In this document: piece after piece, positions 21,165-29,813 of the stretch
How the letters are laid out: each line of letters opens with the position of its first letter
Numbering within the stretch: the stretch's first letter is position 1
Origin: a virus
Length of the DNA: 33,243 nt
IMG/VR virus record: IMGVR_UViG_3300027980_000288
Location: 1-33,243 of that record
Reading direction: 5' to 3' (one strand)
Notes under the pieces: model-generated
What the model saw: the letters and a program-made list of their open reading frames with translations, nothing else
What the model was told of the DNA's origin: nothing
The model's database searches: none
Translations under genes and position numbers: made by a program

Positions 21165-21515
21165 TTATTCACTTTCATCAAAATATTTTTCATATGTTTT
21201 ACCATCCGGTGTTTCAATTTCTTTAAAAATGATACTTAAGGGTATCATATAAGCATTGCAGATATTTTGTAAAAATGATTCTGCCGCTTCTTCTGGATCT
21301 ACTGGACCCTTTGAAACTGATTCCGGAATGAATGCTTCGCTACATTCATCATCTATAGCTATTTGCCGATAATAAATTCCTTCCTCATTACTAAAAATAG
21401 TTGCCGATTTCACTTCGGGAACTGCTTGATTATATTCAATTTTAATTTCCCCATCAGTCTTTTTAACAAGAATATAATATCCTGTGTTAATTAACCGTTG
21501 ACTTATAGTTCCCAT
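21165..21515 (-). CDS. Hypothetical protein next to polymerase
   Basis: This encodes 116 residues from ATG 21515; the start overlaps the polymerase stop by 13 nt. No family is recognised. The first half consists of alternating strands (TGYYILVKKTDGEIKIEY, then ATIFSNEEGIYYRQI) and the second of a helix region (PEEAAESFLQNICNAYMIPL) with an acidic C-terminus. There is no transmembrane segment or metal motif. Tight coupling to the C-terminal polymerase gene suggests a replication-module accessory, but that is context only. Confidence 0.55.
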   Translation of the reverse strand: MGTISQRLINTGYYILVKKTDGEIKIEYNQAVPEVKSATIFSNEEGIYYRQIAIDDECSEAFIPESVSKGPVDPEEAAESFLQNICNAYMIPLSIIFKEIETPDGKTYEKYFDESE

Positions 21516-23506
21516 ACTTCCTCCAAGACTAATCCACCTCGATTAGATCTTTTTGCATGTAACATAATAATGTTGTTATCATATAATTGATTTTCATAAA
21601 CCATTTTAGATGGAAAGCAGACACAATCGCATTCGCCGGTCATGTCTACTAATTTAAAACTGGCCATTACTTGACCTTTGAGCTTACCATTCTTAATTGT
21701 AAATTCTCTGTGATCAGTAATCTCACCAGCAATAATAAACTCGTTTAAATATTTCTTTTTAATATCAGCACATTTGTGCTTACCCATTGGAATTTTACCC
21801 GAATTAATTTTACGGGCAGAAATACTTGTTCCAAGTAATTCACGTTCATGATCAACAATATTATCAATATGATCATTTAAATCCATTGGCGGGTGCTCTA
21901 ATGCATTAAGAACACTTTCATGAATACTTTTATCTCTTCTGGGTTTTCCATTTTTAATATAATATTCTGCGGCAGCTTTTAAGCTCGTAAATTTATGTTC
22001 TTCATAAAATGCACGAATATGTTTTTGTTCTGTTTTATTATACACAGTCCACTGATTGTATTCAAATTCAGCTTGAACTCTACCCACCATTAATTGATCA
22101 AAACATCCGGTTCGGATCATTGAGATCATTTGTTTTTTATTCCAATTATGGCTATGTAAAATAAGAAATTCTATCCAAGAACAGTTTTCAAAAGTAAGAT
22201 TATTATCTACTTTATCAAAACTTTTTTCTCCACAATTTTTAATAGAAGACAAACCAAAAGTAACTTTGTCTCCAGCCATATCAAAATCAATTTTTGGATA
22301 TTGTTTGATTGTCGGTGGAACAATGGGAATCTTTAGACGTCTAGATTCAGAAATTACTGAACGAATTTCAGTACGTGTGTCAGCTTCATTTTTTGCATTT
22401 CTTAACCACGCACAGATATACTCTTGCGGGTAATGGGCCTTAGCCCACGCTGTCCAATATCCAGTTAAGGCATAACCGACACTGTGTGAGTTTGAACTTA
22501 TTAAGCCATTATCTAGATAGAATGTATGACTTGTATTCTTAACTTGCAAATCCACACTATTTCCTTGACGTCGTACTTGTACTATACCATTAACTGTGAC
22601 AGAATTTCCCGTTTTTTCCAAAATTTTTGCATTTTTTTTGAAAATTTCTAATATCGGCATCTTTCCAAGTGACGTAACAAACTGATGAGTGGGAGAGCAC
22701 ACAACCTCTCCGGCATTTGTTGAAACCTCTAGCATTTGAGTTTGATGAAAAAACACATTCTCAACTCTGCACACACCCTCGGGGGTGTAAACTTCGTCGC
22801 CAGTGCGGACATTAGTAATTTGCATCGGACCCTTTGTGGTTGCTACCAACGTATCGGGAGCTAAACATTTATTAAATGAATATCTAGCTGCGGCAGAGAT
22901 TTGTTCAAATAAAAATTCACCTTCAGCTTTAGTAATTTTACCTACTTTTTCAACTCCGGAAATGAATTTTTCCTTAAAAGAAAATACAATATCAGCTTTT
23001 TTCTTTGCGATACCCTTTAAGAACTTAAGTGATTCACTTCCTGAAAAGCCAGCAACCCTTTGAGCAATTAATAAAATATCTTCTTGATAAACTAAAATGC
23101 CATATGTTTCTGGAGTTAACTGAAAAAGAATATCATCTGGATTATTACCAATTCCATTCTTCCTATCACAGAAAATTTTTGTTAAAGATACTCCATTTTC
23201 ATCTAAACTATTCAACGTACCGGGTCTAATGACTGCTATCAAAGCCGCCGCATCTTCAATTTTTTCTGGTTTTAATTCAGATGCCCAAGTTTTTCCTAAG
23301 AAAGACTCTAACTGAAACACAGATTGTGTGTGGCCCTTGGCATAAACCTCCCAAGATTTTTTACACGCCACATTATCCTCTTCAAACGAAGGGTCACGAA
23401 AGTCAATAAATGGCTTACCGTTAACCTCTAATACTTTACATCCACATTCTAATTGCTTATATTGTTTCACACTAAACATCCTTATGACAGACAACAAATC
23501 TGTCAT
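21503..23506 (-). CDS. dnaE: DNA polymerase III alpha, C-terminal half, with mini-intein
   Basis: This encodes 667 residues before splicing, 541 after. The extein starts in the region after the third catalytic Asp of DnaE: SVFQLES (about 61-67), then IRPGTL (about 93-98), TPETYGILVYQEDILLIAQR (about 130-149) and the FNK|SHSVGYALTGYWTAWAK block, split by the intein at 214-339. These are fingers and helix-hairpin-helix segments of C-family polymerases. The end (FIIAGEITDHREFTIKNGKL to the C-terminus) is an OB-fold. The tau-binding extension of longer DnaEs is absent. The other half is at 25592-27445. The start is uncertain: this ATG gives the longest form, but a GTG at 23470 has AAGG with 9-nt spacing and no overlap, and an ATG at 23479 lies next to that AAGG. 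Confidence 0.9.
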   Translation of the reverse strand: MTDLLSVIRMFSVKQYKQLECGCKVLEVNGKPFIDFRDPSFEEDNVACKKSWEVYAKGHTQSVFQLESFLGKTWASELKPEKIEDAAALIAVIRPGTLNSLDENGVSLTKIFCDRKNGIGNNPDDILFQLTPETYGILVYQEDILLIAQRVAGFSGSESLKFLKGIAKKKADIVFSFKEKFISGVEKVGKITKAEGEFLFEQISAAARYSFNKCLAPDTLVATTKGPMQITNVRTGDEVYTPEGVCRVENVFFHQTQMLEVSTNAGEVVCSPTHQFVTSLGKMPILEIFKKNAKILEKTGNSVTVNGIVQVRRQGNSVDLQVKNTSHTFYLDNGLISSNSHSVGYALTGYWTAWAKAHYPQEYICAWLRNAKNEADTRTEIRSVISESRRLKIPIVPPTIKQYPKIDFDMAGDKVTFGLSSIKNCGEKSFDKVDNNLTFENCSWIEFLILHSHNWNKKQMISMIRTGCFDQLMVGRVQAEFEYNQWTVYNKTEQKHIRAFYEEHKFTSLKAAAEYYIKNGKPRRDKSIHESVLNALEHPPMDLNDHIDNIVDHERELLGTSISARKINSGKIPMGKHKCADIKKKYLNEFIIAGEITDHREFTIKNGKLKGQVMASFKLVDMTGECDCVCFPSKMVYENQLYDNNIIMLHAKRSNRGGLVLEEVWEL
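22490..22867 (-). other. DnaE mini-intein, 126 residues
   Basis: This is an in-frame insert between FNK and SHS of the polymerase. It starts with Cys1 (CLAPDTLVATTKGP) as block A and has GDEVYTPEG after it. Block B is VVCSPTHQFVT with His61. The insert ends with block F/G VDLQVKNTSHTFYLDNG then LISSN, with the final Asn126, and Ser as the +1 extein residue. The penultimate residue is Ser instead of the usual His. No LAGLIDADG or HNH endonuclease is present. Splicing residues (Cys1, His in B, Asn end, Ser+1) look intact, so it is probably active. Confidence 0.9.
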
Positions 23507-23954
23507 CTAGATACTTACGTATTTTACTCCTAACTGTTCGCCACTGCAAACCGCCATTGCCACAGCCGGGCCGAGTCATTATAATTTTTTGCCATTGCAT
23601 AATATCTACAAGTTTTTTAAGATTTTTACAAGAAGCTTCAATTAATTCAATTGGCGAATCATCTTTCCAGTGAAATTTGGTTTGCAATCCCACTACATAA
23701 AACTTGTTATGTCCCAACATTCTAGGACCATCTAATAATAGATGGTAATCCTCAATATCAATATCTTTATATTTGTCTACTATTTGTCCCCAATTCCATG
23801 CTAAGTATTTAAATTTAGCATTAAACTGTTCAGCAATACCTCGGCCCATTACTAAGCTGCCATTCATTTTAACCATATTATTAGTAGTACAAACTAAGGC
23901 ATCTACATCTTGCTGTTCCGCGATACGCCAGAAATCTTGTTCTTCTTCTATCAT
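23472..23954 (-). CDS. Macro-domain protein (ADP-ribose binding/hydrolysing)
   Basis: This encodes 160 residues, ATG 23954, in ATGA overlap with the preceding exonuclease gene. It is a single macro domain. DALVCTTNNMVKMNGSLVMG at residues 18-37 ends in the MGRGIAEQF loop, where Asn25/26 and Gly-rich turns contact ADP-ribose. The second loop is MTRPGCGNGGLQW at 126-138. This NGSLVMGRG...GxGNGGLxW layout is what I know from phage macro domains and yeast Poa1-like ADP-ribose 1''-phosphate phosphatases. Likely activities are removal of ADP-ribose from DNA or protein, or ADP-ribose-phosphate hydrolysis. Placed between exonuclease and polymerase, it may repair ADP-ribosylated DNA or proteins; that is inference. 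Confidence 0.85.
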   Translation of the reverse strand: MIEEEQDFWRIAEQQDVDALVCTTNNMVKMNGSLVMGRGIAEQFNAKFKYLAWNWGQIVDKYKDIDIEDYHLLLDGPRMLGHNKFYVVGLQTKFHWKDDSPIELIEASCKNLKKLVDIMQWQKIIMTRPGCGNGGLQWRTVRSKIRKYLDDRFVVCHKDV

Positions 23955-24751
23955 ATAATGTTTTTCTCTTTTAAAATATTATGAATAGGTAATACGGTTT
24001 CACCCTCGGTCACCCAATCAACCTCCTCTACAACACTCCGTAGTAGCTTCTGTATTCTGATATATATCTCCGCGGTCCACAGAACGTCTACAAGCGCGTG
24101 ATGAGCGTTAATGGAGTCAAACCCTAAATATTCTTTGATGACGTCTAGAGAGCGTCTGTGTGGTTCCTTCATGCTTTCAAATATCATAAAGCACATCTGA
24201 GCGATATCTACCGCCATCGCTGGATAAAATAACCAGTTTGGACCAAATCCCCAAGGCTCTTTATGTAACTTATAGTGATCAATAATTTCAGATGATTTAG
24301 CTTTTTTGAGCGCTACCCGACTCATTGGTTTATTTTGTAATGAGCGTAATTTGTGCAGGTGTCCATTTTGTAATCGGTTTGCTATCTGCATATCAAACGG
24401 CAGATTGAAACCAGCTGCAATTGGGGCTTCCCACGCATTATCTTTTGGGGTATGAAACTTAACCCAATTAGTAAATGAATCCCATACATTCTTAGGGTTT
24501 GGAAAGGTTTTGATTTGATCAACTGTAAATTTGTTCTTTTCCAAAGCTTGTTTTTCAAGTGGTCTCAAATTGTATAAATCAACTTCGTCATCATGAACAA
24601 TATTCATTGTGCCATAAAAAAGACCATTGTCACAAATTGTCAATCGGCGACCGTCTAGCATTACTGCACCTAAACTAATTGGTTGAGTAAACTCCGGATC
24701 TCTACTAGTTGTTTCAAAATCAAAAATACAAATCTTATTGTAATTGATCAT
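23951..24751 (-). CDS. DEDDh 3'-5' exonuclease (DnaQ-like proofreader)
   Basis: This encodes 266 residues from ATG 24751, 17 nt inside the preceding gene. Motif ExoI is FDFETTS (Asp11, Glu13), ExoII GFNLPFDMQI (Asp120), and ExoIII HHALVDVLWTAEI with His217 and Asp222 (H-x4-D). The family removes mispaired 3' nucleotides using two metal ions, normally as the epsilon partner of polymerase III. A helical region rich in charged residues lies between ExoII and ExoIII. The gene sits between the two polymerase halves, so a proofreading role for this replicase is the natural reading. The polymerase PHP domain also keeps its metal residues, so two nuclease activities may coexist. Confidence 0.9.
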   Translation of the reverse strand: MINYNKICIFDFETTSRDPEFTQPISLGAVMLDGRRLTICDNGLFYGTMNIVHDDEVDLYNLRPLEKQALEKNKFTVDQIKTFPNPKNVWDSFTNWVKFHTPKDNAWEAPIAAGFNLPFDMQIANRLQNGHLHKLRSLQNKPMSRVALKKAKSSEIIDHYKLHKEPWGFGPNWLFYPAMAVDIAQMCFMIFESMKEPHRRSLDVIKEYLGFDSINAHHALVDVLWTAEIYIRIQKLLRSVVEEVDWVTEGETVLPIHNILKEKNII

Positions 24752-25238
24752 TTAATTTTTTCATTTCTAATTCAAATTGATCTAATTTTTTGGGAGAGCC
24801 ACATAATGCGCTTGGGGCGTCAAACTGCTCCACTGGAAAAAGCTTATTATATTTTTTTATTTGCTTACCCAATCCAATCACCCCTTTTACTGGCTCACAT
24901 CCTTGACGGCGCAAAGCTGTTTGTAAATCACAAAATTCCTTTAACAGCCATATTCGTGCACATTCTTTTTTTTCACTTATTTTGTTATTATGTATACACT
25001 TAATGAATGGTGTAAAATACCAACCGTTTATACCAGCTGATTGCAAACGGCGTGTCAAGATTGTATATTCTAGTTCAGTAAGAAATTCTCTTGTCTCATC
25101 CATTTGTTTAGTAATCTTTAAGTCGCAGATAAAAAAGAATTTAGGCATACCTTCCCACATAGGTGTCATTGGCCCATAATCCATGTTTTTATATAACGGA
25201 CATGATTGACAAGCTATTATTTCATTCTTGATTCCCAT
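24735..25238 (-). CDS. Fe-S uracil-DNA-glycosylase-like protein (family 4 type), degenerate catalytic site
   Basis: This encodes 167 residues from ATG 25238, overlapping the preceding gene by 17 nt. The N-terminal CQSCPLY (Cys10, Cys13) and YFTPFIKCIHNNKISEKKEC (Cys81, Cys93) match the four cluster ligands of family 4 uracil-DNA glycosylases. GLGKQ near 122-126 matches the final strand/loop with G-x-x-A. The normal catalytic GEAPGxxED after the first cysteines is replaced by ICDLKITKQMDETREFL. Thus I see an Fe-S-UDG fold without the catalytic Glu/Asp and without the HPSP motif. It could bind damaged DNA or act in another way. UDG-family fold fairly likely; activity doubtful. Confidence 0.55.
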   Translation of the reverse strand: MGIKNEIIACQSCPLYKNMDYGPMTPMWEGMPKFFFICDLKITKQMDETREFLTELEYTILTRRLQSAGINGWYFTPFIKCIHNNKISEKKECARIWLLKEFCDLQTALRRQGCEPVKGVIGLGKQIKKYNKLFPVEQFDAPSALCGSPKKLDQFELEMKKLNDQLQ

Positions 25239-25602
25239 TTTTTAACTCACAATTTTCATTTTCTAAAAACTCTATATAATTTTTTAAATTAAAGATTTCT
25301 GCTTCTAAATCATCTTGATGCATATCCTCAGCTTCTAATTCTTTATCATAAGCCTTAAATGCATATGCAAATCCAAAAATAAAATGTAATAAACTACTTT
25401 TAAGTAACTCTCCGTCTTTTAAATCTGGATTGGTAATGATCTCGTGTACACATTTACTATACAAAGAGTATAAAAATTTTTCTTTCTTTACAGAATGAAT
25501 AATGTTTAAAATTTTAGATTCATTCATATCTAAGATAGATTGAAGTTTTTCTACAGGAAAATCTTTCAGCAATAAATCTTTTGTTGCTTTGCTAATCTTC
25601 AT
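25222..25602 (-). CDS. Hypothetical helical protein between polymerase halves
   Basis: This encodes 126 residues from ATG 25602, 11 nt inside the N-terminal polymerase gene. No family is recognised. It is predicted nearly all helical by eye. An N-terminal helix-turn region (LLKDFPVEKLQSILDM) leads to a middle with LLKSSLLHFIFGFAYAFKAY, a possible hydrophobic helix, and then a Glu/Leu/Asn coiled-coil-like C-terminus (EAEIFNLKNYIEFLENENCE). It overlaps its neighbours at both ends. The role is unknown. Confidence 0.5.
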   Translation of the reverse strand: MKISKATKDLLLKDFPVEKLQSILDMNESKILNIIHSVKKEKFLYSLYSKCVHEIITNPDLKDGELLKSSLLHFIFGFAYAFKAYDKELEAEDMHQDDLEAEIFNLKNYIEFLENENCELKNGNQE

Positions 25603-27445
25603 AATTGGATTGTAATATATTATTAAGTTCCATTAAACAATCCAAATTCTTCAATGCTAAAATATCAAATTTTACTAGACTAACATCTTCGAAAGAATAC
25701 ATGTCTAAGGCACAAATATTCTTATTTTTCTTTTGATCTCTAGTTATTGGAGCGTTGGATGTTATTGGAAGATCTGAGATGATAACAGCAGATGGGTGAG
25801 AAGAGGTTGATTTAATTGCACCTTCTAATTGAATTGCTAATTTAAAATACTTTGCCCATTCACCAACAAGTTTATTATTGCCGCTTTCATCAGTTTCAAC
25901 CCTACAGTAATCATGGAGTAATTCCGGTTCTTCTTTAAGCGTGTAGAGTAATAGTGAGTCAGTTCCTTCTCGTTTTGAGAATTCTTCCAACTTGTCAGAA
26001 ATCTTATCTTTGGCCGGAATTAATTCCGAAACTTTATTCATTGTTGTGTGATCACATACTTGATATACGCGAAGGACATCCTTTAACGCACCCCGTCCTT
26101 GTAATTTACCAAAGGCAACTGCTTGAACAACATGCTCTTCTCCGTATTTTTCTGTAATATATCGAATTACATCATCGCGGCGAGATGTTGGAAAGTCTAC
26201 ATCATAATCCGGTAATTGCCCAGCTTTAGCGCGGTCAACAGAATAGAATCTCTCAAAGAGTAAATTGTATTTAATCGGATCGAGAGAGGTAATTCCGAGA
26301 AAGAATCCGGTAAGACAGCCGCCACCGGAACCACGAGCTGGCCCCACAAGCATTCCTTGATTAATGGCCCACTGTACATAATCTTGGACGATGAGGAAAT
26401 ATCCAGAAAGATTGGATGAACAGATAAGTTCGAGTTCTGTTTCCAAACGTTTCTTGTAAATTGGGTCATTATCATATTGTTCTTCGAGAACTTTGTAACA
26501 TATTTCTTTAAGTTTAGCGTTATCGTCGTCGGAAAATTTCGGAATGGCTGGTTTGCTAGTGATGTCATAATCTTCTATCTTATCTACAATTTCTTGTGTT
26601 GCATCAAGTAATTTTTGTGGATAACATTTATTAGCAACCTCATTAGTAATTAAACCATATTTCCCGGAAGTAAAGTATGGTATATCATCCAAATATTTTA
26701 CTTGTGTATTCTGCTTAATTGCCACAAATGTTTTGTGTGCTGGGGCATCAGATTCATCAATATAATGTGAGTCGCCGGTACCAACTGATTGAAATCCATG
26801 TTGTTCTGCAAGTCTAAAAAGAGTTAAACCCAATGCTTGTTGAAGCATATCATCCTGATCAAATAGTTGGCATTCAACATAAAAGTCTTTGCCGAATACA
26901 TTTTTATATCTAGAACATATCTCTATGAATTCTTCTTCGTAAGTTGGGAGAAGGTATTGGTCCGCACATTCTAGTGTCTCGCACATAGAGACACCTTCAT
27001 TATTATAAAATATAATATTTGCTAAAGCTGTACCCAAATGACCACATATGACTATTAAACCCTCACTGTGATTAAATAATGCTTCTTCGTCAATTCTGGG
27101 ATAATAATAAAAATTATTAGCGGCATACTCGGTTAATTTACACAGATTCTGGAATCCTGTTTTATTTTTTGCAAGTACCACTAAATGATCTAATTTACGA
27201 TTCTCATTATTCTTTTCTTTTGCTGATTTTGAATCTTGGCAGATATAAAACTCAATACCATAAATTGGTTTTATACCTTCTTTTTCGCAAGCTTTACATA
27301 AGTCTACACAGTTAGACATATTGCCGTGATCAGTGAGAGCAACGGCAGTTTGACCATCTGCTTTTACAAATTTTACAATATCTTCAATCTTTGAGAAACT
27401 ATCCCATGAATATAATGAATGTACATGTAAATTTGTAAAGCTCAT
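25592..27445 (-). CDS. dnaE: DNA polymerase III alpha, N-terminal half (PHP and palm)
   Basis: This encodes 617 residues from ATG 27445, whose ATG overlaps the preceding stop. Residues 6-43 are the PHP domain start (LHVHSLYS, then ALTDHGNM) with further PHP metal ligands at HLVVLAKN, VECQLFD and TGDSHYID, so a metal site looks complete. The palm follows: VGPARGSGGGCL, LDPIKYNLLFERF, then LPDYDVDFP with the catalytic Asp pair (Asp413/415/417 region). VKFDILALKNLD near the end has the third Asp (Asp594). The protein stops about 23 residues later, at the point where intact DnaE continues into fingers. The remainder is encoded at 21503-23506 with four genes in between. Phage origin is inferred from context. 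The N-terminus is otherwise full length. Confidence 0.92.
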   Translation of the reverse strand: MSFTNLHVHSLYSWDSFSKIEDIVKFVKADGQTAVALTDHGNMSNCVDLCKACEKEGIKPIYGIEFYICQDSKSAKEKNNENRKLDHLVVLAKNKTGFQNLCKLTEYAANNFYYYPRIDEEALFNHSEGLIVICGHLGTALANIIFYNNEGVSMCETLECADQYLLPTYEEEFIEICSRYKNVFGKDFYVECQLFDQDDMLQQALGLTLFRLAEQHGFQSVGTGDSHYIDESDAPAHKTFVAIKQNTQVKYLDDIPYFTSGKYGLITNEVANKCYPQKLLDATQEIVDKIEDYDITSKPAIPKFSDDDNAKLKEICYKVLEEQYDNDPIYKKRLETELELICSSNLSGYFLIVQDYVQWAINQGMLVGPARGSGGGCLTGFFLGITSLDPIKYNLLFERFYSVDRAKAGQLPDYDVDFPTSRRDDVIRYITEKYGEEHVVQAVAFGKLQGRGALKDVLRVYQVCDHTTMNKVSELIPAKDKISDKLEEFSKREGTDSLLLYTLKEEPELLHDYCRVETDESGNNKLVGEWAKYFKLAIQLEGAIKSTSSHPSAVIISDLPITSNAPITRDQKKNKNICALDMYSFEDVSLVKFDILALKNLDCLMELNNILQSNYED

Positions 27446-28020
27446 AATATACCTGTAATTTGAAATAATGCTATGATAGCGGCAGAAGGATACTCCACAT
27501 CCTTTATATAATAATGTAACTTATTAGTGACGGCTGGCATTAAGAAAAAAGAATCTTTTTTACCAGCTTTTTCAAATTTTACACCATGTTTTGGATAATC
27601 ATCTACTAATATGCCATCATTATCAACAACAATTGATTTACTATGGGTAATAATTAAATTTTTACTCATATCTGGAAAATGATCATTTAACCATAATTGT
27701 TTACCGGCTGAACAAATACCATTTGGTATAGGTGAAGTTAAGAAGAAAACATTTTCTTTACCATACTTTTCAATACTTAACTTAACACACTGTTCTGCCC
27801 ACGGTAGAAATGGAATAGTTCTCCAAAATTCTTGATCCAGCACTAACCAAAACTCATCATGAGTCATATTTACTAACTCATTTATTTCTCTATGTCCTAG
27901 ATTTTCAGGATTTAAATAAGGATTCTTAATTCCATGAAATTTACACGCCGCATCAGATGTATCTAGTAATGTTTCATCAAGATCCCAAAAAATTCTTTTC
28001 TTTTCAATCTTTTTTATCAT
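27442..28020 (-). CDS. 5'(3')-deoxyribonucleotidase-like HAD phosphatase
   Basis: This encodes 192 residues from ATG 28020, chosen because GGAAGGA (28027-28033) is 6 nt upstream; upstream starts at 28023 and 28047 are possible. It is a HAD fold: FWDLDETLLDT at 11-21 (nucleophile Asp13, acid Asp15), then VFFLTSPIPNGICSAGKQLW (Thr/Ser motif II with the Cys-x-x-K-x-x-W segment of NT5C-type enzymes), and ILVDDYPKHG with the acidic motif. Enzymes of this type hydrolyse dNMPs to deoxynucleosides. Its stop overlaps the polymerase start. It may adjust dNMP pools during phage replication. Substrate specificity is inferred. Confidence 0.75.
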   Translation of the reverse strand: MIKKIEKKRIFWDLDETLLDTSDAACKFHGIKNPYLNPENLGHREINELVNMTHDEFWLVLDQEFWRTIPFLPWAEQCVKLSIEKYGKENVFFLTSPIPNGICSAGKQLWLNDHFPDMSKNLIITHSKSIVVDNDGILVDDYPKHGVKFEKAGKKDSFFLMPAVTNKLHYYIKDVEYPSAAIIALFQITGIL

Positions 28021-29023
28021 CATTTTTCCTTCCGCCACCTTCACCATAAGTATTGATTTTGGTTAAGTCAGCATATTGTTCAACCGTCTTTTTCATTCCA
28101 TCTTCACTAATCTTTTTATGAAGAAAATCACACAATGATGCTCCATTAGTGAAACTTGTAGGTTTACTAAACGAACAACAATACTTGCATTTCCAACTCT
28201 TTTGTGATGGATCAAATCTTTTAGGCGGCTTGCGTACATTTTGCATAAGATTAAAGTGTTTTCTAATATTATGTTCAGCTTCTTTCAACATCTCTTTGGT
28301 GCCCATAACTGAAAAAATACCGCCAGCATTTATAAAAAACAAACTCATTATAAATTGTTTCTCAGGATAAAGTTGATTTAATGCATACAAATAGAATAGA
28401 AGTTGATGATCCTTTTTAAGATATTCAACTGTTTTTTCTTCATCTGTAGCGAAATCATTTCTTCGACCTGTTTTAAAATCCAAGACTTCATATACATCGT
28501 CACCGTGATCTATGATCGTATCAATCGTTCCACGAATTGCTAGGTGCCCAGTATGTTTTTCTCCGTCAATAGTTACAGAATATCTAGCCCACGGTTCTTT
28601 AATTTCAAAATCAAAGAATTTTTCAGTCTCTATAATATTCAGAGTTGCCGGATCATGTTCTGGATAATCTATCAAAGACTTAGTTAACCATTGATCAATT
28701 TCTTTCTCACTAATTTTTTTGTCAAAATCAATATGAGTTTCTACACCTTTATAGTATTCAATAACTTTTGGCAGTGTCTTTTTATAATCTTTAGCCCAAT
28801 CAACTTTGACGATACCAAAATTATCATCTTCAATTTCAGATTCATTAATTCTTTCGGCCATACCAGCCAAGGCTCTTAACTCAGCACACTTATGGAAGAT
28901 AGTACCTTTGGTAGCTGCTGCTCCAGCCTTATTTGAGAACCCAAAAACATATTGTAAATAGTATTGGTGTTCGCAGAATTTATACGTTCCGATTGCAGAG
29001 CTTCTAAGATACGGTACTAGCAT
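28004..29023 (-). CDS. Cas4/RecB-like PD-(D/E)XK nuclease with Fe-S cysteines
   Basis: This encodes 339 residues from ATG 29023; an in-frame TTG two codons upstream (29029) has a better AAGG spacing and is the alternative. Motifs in order: the N-terminal YKFCEHQYYLQY with Cys17, GTIFHKCAE with His44, IRGTID with Asp168, and YEVLDFKTG with Asp182 and Lys184, followed by QLLFYLYAL with a catalytic Gln. The C-terminus WKCKYCCSF...SLC supplies the other three cluster cysteines. This is the layout of AddB/Cas4-type 5'-3' exonucleases. It may prepare ends for recombination with the annealing-like protein at 12326-13069 or process replication DNA. No CRISPR array or cas1/cas2 is present, so a CRISPR role is not suggested. 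Confidence 0.85.
   Translation of the reverse strand: MLVPYLRSSAIGTYKFCEHQYYLQYVFGFSNKAGAAATKGTIFHKCAELRALAGMAERINESEIEDDNFGIVKVDWAKDYKKTLPKVIEYYKGVETHIDFDKKISEKEIDQWLTKSLIDYPEHDPATLNIIETEKFFDFEIKEPWARYSVTIDGEKHTGHLAIRGTIDTIIDHGDDVYEVLDFKTGRRNDFATDEEKTVEYLKKDHQLLFYLYALNQLYPEKQFIMSLFFINAGGIFSVMGTKEMLKEAEHNIRKHFNLMQNVRKPPKRFDPSQKSWKCKYCCSFSKPTSFTNGASLCDFLHKKISEDGMKKTVEQYADLTKINTYGEGGGRKNDDKKD
28027..28033 (-). promoter_or_regulatory. Shine-Dalgarno fixing the nucleotidase start
   Basis: GGAAGGA on the - strand lies 6 nt before the ATG at 28020, supporting this start rather than the upstream ATG at 28047 (which would precede the Shine-Dalgarno). It lies within the 3' end of the Cas4-like gene. 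Confidence 0.6.
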
Positions 29024-29813
29024 GATCAATTTTTACCTTTTTATTTTCTAAAAAGTTATTATCAACCAAATATTTAATAACTAATTCATTTTTTTCAATC
29101 ATATTTAAATCATCTGGTACGATTAAATCGTAACGATCATTATCAATATTTTTTAATCCATTTTCTGATTTGGCTGAAGACTTCAGAACACTGCGTGAGT
29201 GTTTGATTAAACATACATTGTCAGGATCTGCCAACTTACGCTTTTCGCAAAATTCAAATTCATTTAAGAATCTTCCATCTGGAAGAATAGCAACTTCTGG
29301 TTGCCATTTTTCTAAGGTTTTAAAGGCACCTTTAATATGTACATCTGGATCAATGACACGTAAAACATCTGTGCCAAAAACTTCTAAGAGCTGGCGATAA
29401 GTCATTGGATCATTAACTTTGTGTTTGCCTTTGTAATAGCTAGTATCTACTAGCTTATTCATCATTTTCCAAGTAATTTCAGACGGCGAATTCTTATCAT
29501 CGTCTGAACCATATAATTTTTCTAATGGAACACCAAACATTAATGATACAACATGTTTTAACTTATCTGCATAACTTGCATGCATAACATATTTGTAAAC
29601 ATTATGTGCATAAAATGTTCTAATATTTTCTTCTTGGGTGTCAATATCAAATTTAAATCCCGTGCCGTCTGCATATTCTACAAACATCTCACCCTGATCA
29701 TTAAATTTAACAACTGGCACAACTTCTTTTTGAACAGCAATATAACCATAAATTGCAGTTGCCGTTGTCGTTTTTCCAGATTGCTTAGTTCCAAATAAAC
29801 AAATTTCTTTCAT
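29004..29813 (-). CDS. Deoxynucleoside monophosphate kinase
   Basis: This encodes 269 residues from ATG 29813, in ATGA overlap with the primase stop; an ATG at 29825 is less likely because it has no Shine-Dalgarno. A P-loop GTKQSGKT at residues 8-15 is followed by ASYADKLKHVVSLMFGVPLE, the LID/helix segment shared with phage dNMP kinases (T4 gene 1-like), then YRQLLEVFGTDVLR and LPDGRFLNEFEF with the conserved D-x-R. The family phosphorylates dTMP, dGMP and modified dNMPs for phage DNA synthesis. It is next to an NT5C-like phosphatase and the polymerase, so control of nucleotide pools is likely. Firm family call. Confidence 0.9.
   Translation of the reverse strand: MKEICLFGTKQSGKTTTATAIYGYIAVQKEVVPVVKFNDQGEMFVEYADGTGFKFDIDTQEENIRTFYAHNVYKYVMHASYADKLKHVVSLMFGVPLEKLYGSDDDKNSPSEITWKMMNKLVDTSYYKGKHKVNDPMTYRQLLEVFGTDVLRVIDPDVHIKGAFKTLEKWQPEVAILPDGRFLNEFEFCEKRKLADPDNVCLIKHSRSVLKSSAKSENGLKNIDNDRYDLIVPDDLNMIEKNELVIKYLVDNNFLENKKVKIDHASTVS

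Follow-up and report, generated by a model that had tools for sequence, protein, structure and literature searches.

The divided dnaE locus

The window, by which we mean the whole stretch of DNA analysed here (33,243 nucleotides, IMG/VR record IMGVR_UViG_3300027980_000288), encodes DNA polymerase III alpha in two separate genes. Both lie on the minus strand, 2,085 bp apart, and each has its own start and its own stop. The first, dnaE-N (25592-27445, 617 aa), codes for the PHP and palm/thumb half, and the second, dnaE-C (21503-23506, 667 aa including an intein), for the fingers, HHH and putative OB half. The single polypeptide of a DnaE-type C-family polymerase is found neither among the ORFs of the window nor in the split loci of its family. 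Four genes stand between the halves on the same strand, overlapping head to tail and having individual start codons. A HAD-like nucleotidase (27442-28047, minus strand) and a PD-(D/E)XK nuclease (28004-29029, minus strand) belong to the same run of overlapping genes, and genes for a DnaB-type helicase and a primase adjoin the block.

The initial annotation had read this locus as a DnaE split into two genes with four others between them, the first gene holding PHP and palm with all three catalytic Asp residues, and the fingers-to-OB part forming a separate gene more than 2 kb downstream. The first gene answers fully to this description. It matches the Pfam families PHP (1.4e-39), which lies N-terminally as in the DnaE type, and DNA_pol3_alpha (4e-68), and the catalytic D413, D415 and D594 are invariant among the distinct N halves of the family (135/135). 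Nine positions that we take, from general knowledge of the PHP family, to be metal ligands are kept in nearly all distinct N halves. For the second gene the distance, the fingers (DNA_pol3_finger, PF17657, 4.5e-24) and the HHH domain (HHH_6, 4.7e-6) stand, both matches being above the cut-off and the fingers motifs conserved, while the OB match stays below threshold (24 bits against a cut-off of 27). PHROG profiles likewise assign PHP and palm to the first gene and fingers and HHH to the second.

AlphaFold models of the halves, built from family alignments, support the view that each half folds as in DnaE. The dnaE-N model (pLDDT 76) resembles DnaE all along its length (TM 0.74, E 5e-43). The dnaE-C model, made for the related locus L137 (pLDDT 83), has a beta-rich C-terminus and can be aligned with DnaE over 528 columns and with Taq DnaE all the way from fingers to OB, though its domains are poorly placed. 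It lies about 4 A from the fingers of E. coli DnaE when the fingers are taken by themselves, and 11-16 A rmsd when all domains are superposed, so the relative placement of its domains is uncertain.

Where exactly is the polymerase divided? Compared with solved DnaE structures, dnaE-N ends at about Taq residue 636, and the C-type halves of the family restart at about Taq 646 (E. coli 586). The break falls in the palm-to-fingers connection, about 20 residues past the third catalytic Asp, and puts palm and fingers on different chains, as first proposed. The last residue of dnaE-N stands 23 positions beyond Asp594 and 15 beyond the motif VKFDILALKNLD. On the other side of the break dnaE-C begins with an N-terminal extension (23366-23506, minus strand) in which alignments mark C21-G-C23 and C48. 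The C-x-C motif is present in 138 of the 152 distinct dnaE-C sequences, and the extension is seen in the alignments neither in intact DnaE nor in the split DnaE of phage phiT1.

A feature overlooked by the initial annotation is a contiguous, in-frame mini-intein of 126 aa inside dnaE-C (22490-22867, minus strand; residues 214-339). It is inserted between FNK and SHS (YSFNK before it, SHSVGYAL after it) and has the characters of a mini Hint intein: Cys1 (CLAPDT), block B SPTHQF and a terminal SSN followed by S. Its best solved relative is the gp41-1 intein (6qaz, E 3.5e-5). Loci L185, L183 and L181, the last with Ser1, and Rhodococcus phage Weasels2 have this dnaE site occupied too. Its intact splicing motifs suggest that the intein excises itself. 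It lies about 180 residues downstream of the break and has nothing to do with it.

The genes between the halves are unequally characterised. Next to dnaE-N, whose end it overlaps, lies a helical protein of 126 aa (25222-25602, minus strand) for which no family was found; 25 residues of it match a 102-aa gene at the equivalent place in locus L184. Then follows a putative Fe-S protein of the UDG-like type (24735-25238, minus strand, 167 aa), which has no Pfam match and no PDB match and apparently lacks the usual UDG active-site motif. Its putative identity comes from its Cys pattern, from a weak match (23% identity) to the gene at the equivalent place in L184, and from a true UDG (PF03167, 3e-20) at that place in L324. 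The third gene codes for a DEDDh 3'-5' exonuclease (23951-24751, minus strand, 266 aa; RNase_T 7e-8), with the complete catalytic set D11, E13, D120, H217 and D222 invariant in all of 135 distinct sequences. The fourth is a macro-domain protein (23472-23954, minus strand, 160 aa) with a Pfam Macro match just above the cut-off (1.3e-4) and a phrog_335 match at 7e-24; it is absent from L184, the closest relative. The first reading of these four genes stands for the exonuclease, the macro domain and the familyless helical protein, and is less secure for the UDG-like one, which matched nothing in Pfam or PDB. A uracil-DNA glycosylase domain is also fused to the C-terminus of a DnaE, that of Rhizobium phage RHEph10 (gp048, L162 4152-7565, residues 986-1119), which echoes the UDG-like genes in the blocks of the window, L184 and L324.

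The same block is present in IMGVR_UViG_3300005590_000001, a sister contig of 171,987 bp from another assembly. This contig is 99.5% identical to the window, the DNA identity being 97-99% over most of the block, and smaller IMG/VR records match the block over the portion that they cover. An independent 172-kb contig with the whole block means that the block is not a chimera, and a chimeric insertion of the intervening genes finds no support. In the sister contig we found a single DNA_pol3_alpha domain, a single finger domain and no other DNA polymerase, PolA and PolB included. The UDG-like gene is only 71% identical between the two phages, against more than 99% for its neighbours, which may be a sign of gene replacement by recombination.

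Distribution and history of the split

An exonuclease scan of IMG/VR gave 79 loci beyond the sister contig. The exonuclease adjoins the dnaE halves in all of them and stands between N and C wherever the contig covers both. Scans with both halves brought the number of loci ordered dnaE-N, DEDDh exonuclease, dnaE-C to 218, representing 153 distinct N+C pairs, with some contigs counted twice among the loci. Of the other loci, 3 are unsplit, 2 have an exonuclease with a broken frame, 2 are unclear and 11 incomplete. The usual content of the gap is an ORF of about 60 aa with a conserved SCC motif, followed by the exonuclease. This small ORF (for example in L075-L153, with an SCC..NA motif) matched no Pfam family and was not found in the sister contig. 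In the closest relatives of the window, L184 and L188 (50% identical in the N half, 41% in the C half), the gap holds the exonuclease, a UDG-like gene and two small genes, and neither macro gene nor intein is present. L077, L283 and L287 carry homing endonucleases or several additional genes between the halves. The split is shared by all 218 loci, a family trait that the initial annotation had overlooked, and the set of four genes is not: the exonuclease is the sole constant intervening gene of the family, and the others are variable cargo.

Twelve contigs of 131-230 kb were searched for polymerases with PF00136, PF00476, PF07733 and PF17657. Each had one PF07733 domain and one finger domain (in one contig the finger match was divided by an insert), that is, exactly one dnaE pair. 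PolA and PolB were found in 0/12 of these contigs, all of which are classed linear, and a second polymerase could conceivably lie beyond their ends. Both halves are under strong purifying selection (median dN/dS 0.041 for dnaE-N and 0.034 for dnaE-C, with 0.024 for the exonuclease), and N-half and C-half distances are correlated (r=0.947).

In INPHARED no cultured phage with the order dnaE-N, exonuclease, dnaE-C was found among the matches listed. The exonuclease family appeared there, again among the matches listed, only in DAC19-kind Bacteroides phages, with no dnaE within about 12 kb on each side. Two gut entries named 'Bacteriophage sp.' (MT837784 and MT835570) were rejected as sources of phage dnaE, for they look like bacterial dnaE contigs. 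The T4-type capsid profile PF07068 had no match anywhere, the controls included. The window is best explained as DNA of a phage with a large genome, one of a broad group of uncultured phages found mostly in water. In L283 (9972-10955), L190 (2756-4030) and L244 (2010-3239) the dnaE block contains or adjoins genes with DUF1559 or DUF1501, which are typical of Planctomycetota, and two MAG contigs from the group bear the label Bacteroidota. The hosts may belong to Planctomycetota or Bacteroidota.

A tree of 37 rows unites the window, L184, the other split loci and the three unsplit ones in a single clade (100/100), to which neither bacterial DnaE nor other phage DnaE nor phiT1 belongs. The unsplit near relatives L259, L290 and L186 have an uninterrupted palm-fingers junction, so the split is not compulsory in the group. 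In L259 and L290 the exonuclease lies just upstream of the unsplit dnaE, with an additional ORF between them in L290. These two are nested among the split rows, which would mean re-fusion; however, the AU test does not reject a single split clade (p=0.086). The unsplit relatives may be ancestral or re-fused, both directions being compatible with the tree and with this test. The C-x-C extension common to the window and the large group favours one split before these lineages parted.

The group is also rich in inteins. In L075 (838-3919), L089 (1-2813) and L146 (4766-7826) a true split intein fractures dnaE-N itself between GPGRG and SAAG, and an endonuclease-like ORF separates the fragments, so that the replicase there is encoded in three pieces. 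Such split-intein fractures occur elsewhere in the group and are not the cause of the palm-fingers break. Another dnaE-C intein, with HNH-like sequence, sits between RPG and CLEA in L089, L093, L142 and L185. It is missing in L139, although L139 and L142 have almost the same dnaE-N, which suggests a recent gain or loss. Other genes of the sister contig are affected as well. For example, a full intein, which includes a LAGLIDADG domain, interrupts an NAD-dependent epimerase (L063 17241-19724). The large subunit of ribonucleotide reductase (L071 3443-6744) is fractured by a split intein, with an ORF between its halves that is GIY-YIG-like by eye and has no Pfam match. An RNA ligase-like gene (L065 6114-8651) is apparently fractured too, its parts being separated by an opposite-strand ORF and its C part bearing an intein C-terminus.

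Proposed assembly and function of the two halves

If palm and fingers are made as separate chains, then we can ask: how do they form a polymerase? Junction alignments reveal no intein halves at the break, as the initial annotation had held. The N half ends in a normal DnaE helix, and dnaE-C starts with a non-intein extension of variable length. Searches of Rfam found no introns in the window, L137, L184 or phiT1, the sole match being a tRNA in phiT1. Taken together with the separate starts and stops, the purifying selection and the clade-wide split, this leads us to infer that the halves assemble non-covalently, as had been thought probable.

We consider that such a two-chain alpha, together with the exonuclease, is the replicase of the phage and its sole replicative polymerase, with a probability of roughly 0.84. 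PHP, palm, thumb and the three catalytic Asp would be on the N chain, and fingers, HHH and OB on the C chain, which would lose its internal intein by self-excision before the chains assemble. The two chains would then bind along the normal palm-fingers interface, as within bacterial DnaE, to give a catalytically active enzyme, and the DEDDh exonuclease would join both, as epsilon does, to complete the replicase core. A more elaborate form of this proposal, which we regard as speculative and rather unlikely, makes the core an obligate assembly of three parts (N chain, exonuclease and C chain), with the C-x-C motif and the conserved Cys48 of the C chain clasping the joint of palm and fingers through a metal or through thiols. 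Were it true, assembly could switch on polymerase activity, and fingers subunits would in principle be exchangeable.

The split enzyme could instead be a repair or accessory polymerase, the phage genome being copied by the host replicase. Group 2.2 jumbo phages, which have a minimal split Pol III beside a PolB replicase (PMC7824862), provide a precedent, and the UDG-like genes in the dnaE block of the window, L184 and L324 would suit a repair function. The absence of PolA and PolB from the 12 long contigs, the adjoining phage genes for DnaB-like helicase and primase, and the full alpha architecture with its neighbouring exonuclease make this improbable.

Covalent rejoining of the halves, whether through protein trans-splicing or through RNA-level splicing or bypass across the intervening genes, seems very improbable. 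In its favour, the group has split inteins in dnaE-N (L075, L089, L146), and in the sister phage a ribonucleotide reductase and, apparently, an RNA ligase are fractured. However, the break itself shows an ordinary DnaE helix on one side and a non-intein extension on the other, the window, L137 and L184 lack Rfam introns, the intervening genes overlap head to tail with their own starts, and the dnaE-C intein is internal and contiguous. About as improbable is the idea that the halves act separately with host partners, N for instance as a PHP nuclease or nucleotidyltransferase and C as a protein that binds DNA. Both halves make up recognisable sets of domains and the PHP ligands are nearly all kept, yet the polymerase Asp triad is invariant, the fingers motifs are conserved, every split locus has the halves side by side, the two co-evolve, and in near relatives they are fused. 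An assembly chimera or a decaying gene, for which only the oddity itself speaks, is refuted by independent assemblies, more than 100 distinct sequences and a dN/dS of about 0.04.

In bacteria palm and fingers belong to a single chain and move relative to each other in each catalytic cycle. A large natural family in which the only replicase found would work with palm and fingers on separate chains makes the need for chain continuity at this hinge testable and offers a natural two-component C-family polymerase. The unsplit relatives L259 and L290 and the independent split of phiT1, known from an isolate record, serve as natural controls. The family also indicates that, over a deep clade of phages, the gene of a proofreading nuclease can stand between the two parts of its polymerase.

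Comparison with known split polymerases

Cyanobacterial DnaE (Ssp, Npu) is likewise encoded by two genes, and there a split intein beside the FNKSH motif joins the product. The break in the window lies about 180 residues upstream of FNKSH and has neither intein-N nor intein-C. The intein that does occupy this motif in the window is of the gp41-1 type, but is contiguous and placed in dnaE, at the site before the S of FNKS that it shares with Weasels2.

The actinophages Hager, ChewyVIII, Weasels2 and Zenon also have DnaE in two genes, sometimes with a small gene between them and again without intein halves. There, however, the break separates PHP from the polymerase, which remains one chain, whereas in the window family it separates palm from fingers. 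In Enterococcus phage EF5 an HNH gene lies within dnaE. The same palm-fingers break occurs in Rossellomorea phage phiT1 (gp20/gp19/gp18, PV767480), a named isolate record, with products of 573 and 469 aa and one small ORF between. By the tree this break is independent, and it has neither the intervening exonuclease nor the C-x-C extension. Both dnaE genes of phiT1 are annotated merely as DNA polymerase III subunit alpha.

Group 2.2 jumbo phages have a split minimal Pol III alpha, without PHP, encoded by distant genes in the presence of PolB (PMC7824862). In them, too, the catalytic module of a C-family alpha is distributed over two proteins that are expected to reconstitute it. They lack PHP and other Pol III domains, whereas the window family keeps the series from PHP to the putative OB. 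Their genes are distant, whereas those of the window family are neighbours with an exonuclease between, and they have PolB, found in 0/12 of our long contigs.

Since the split of jumbo phages was reported earlier (PMC7824862) and those of actinophages are known, a split C-family polymerase as such is not new. Our literature search, which covered few subscription journals, found no paper on a palm-fingers split with an intervening exonuclease. What is new here is a full-length alpha, the sole polymerase found, that is broken between palm and fingers and has an exonuclease gene between its halves, across a large uncultured clade.
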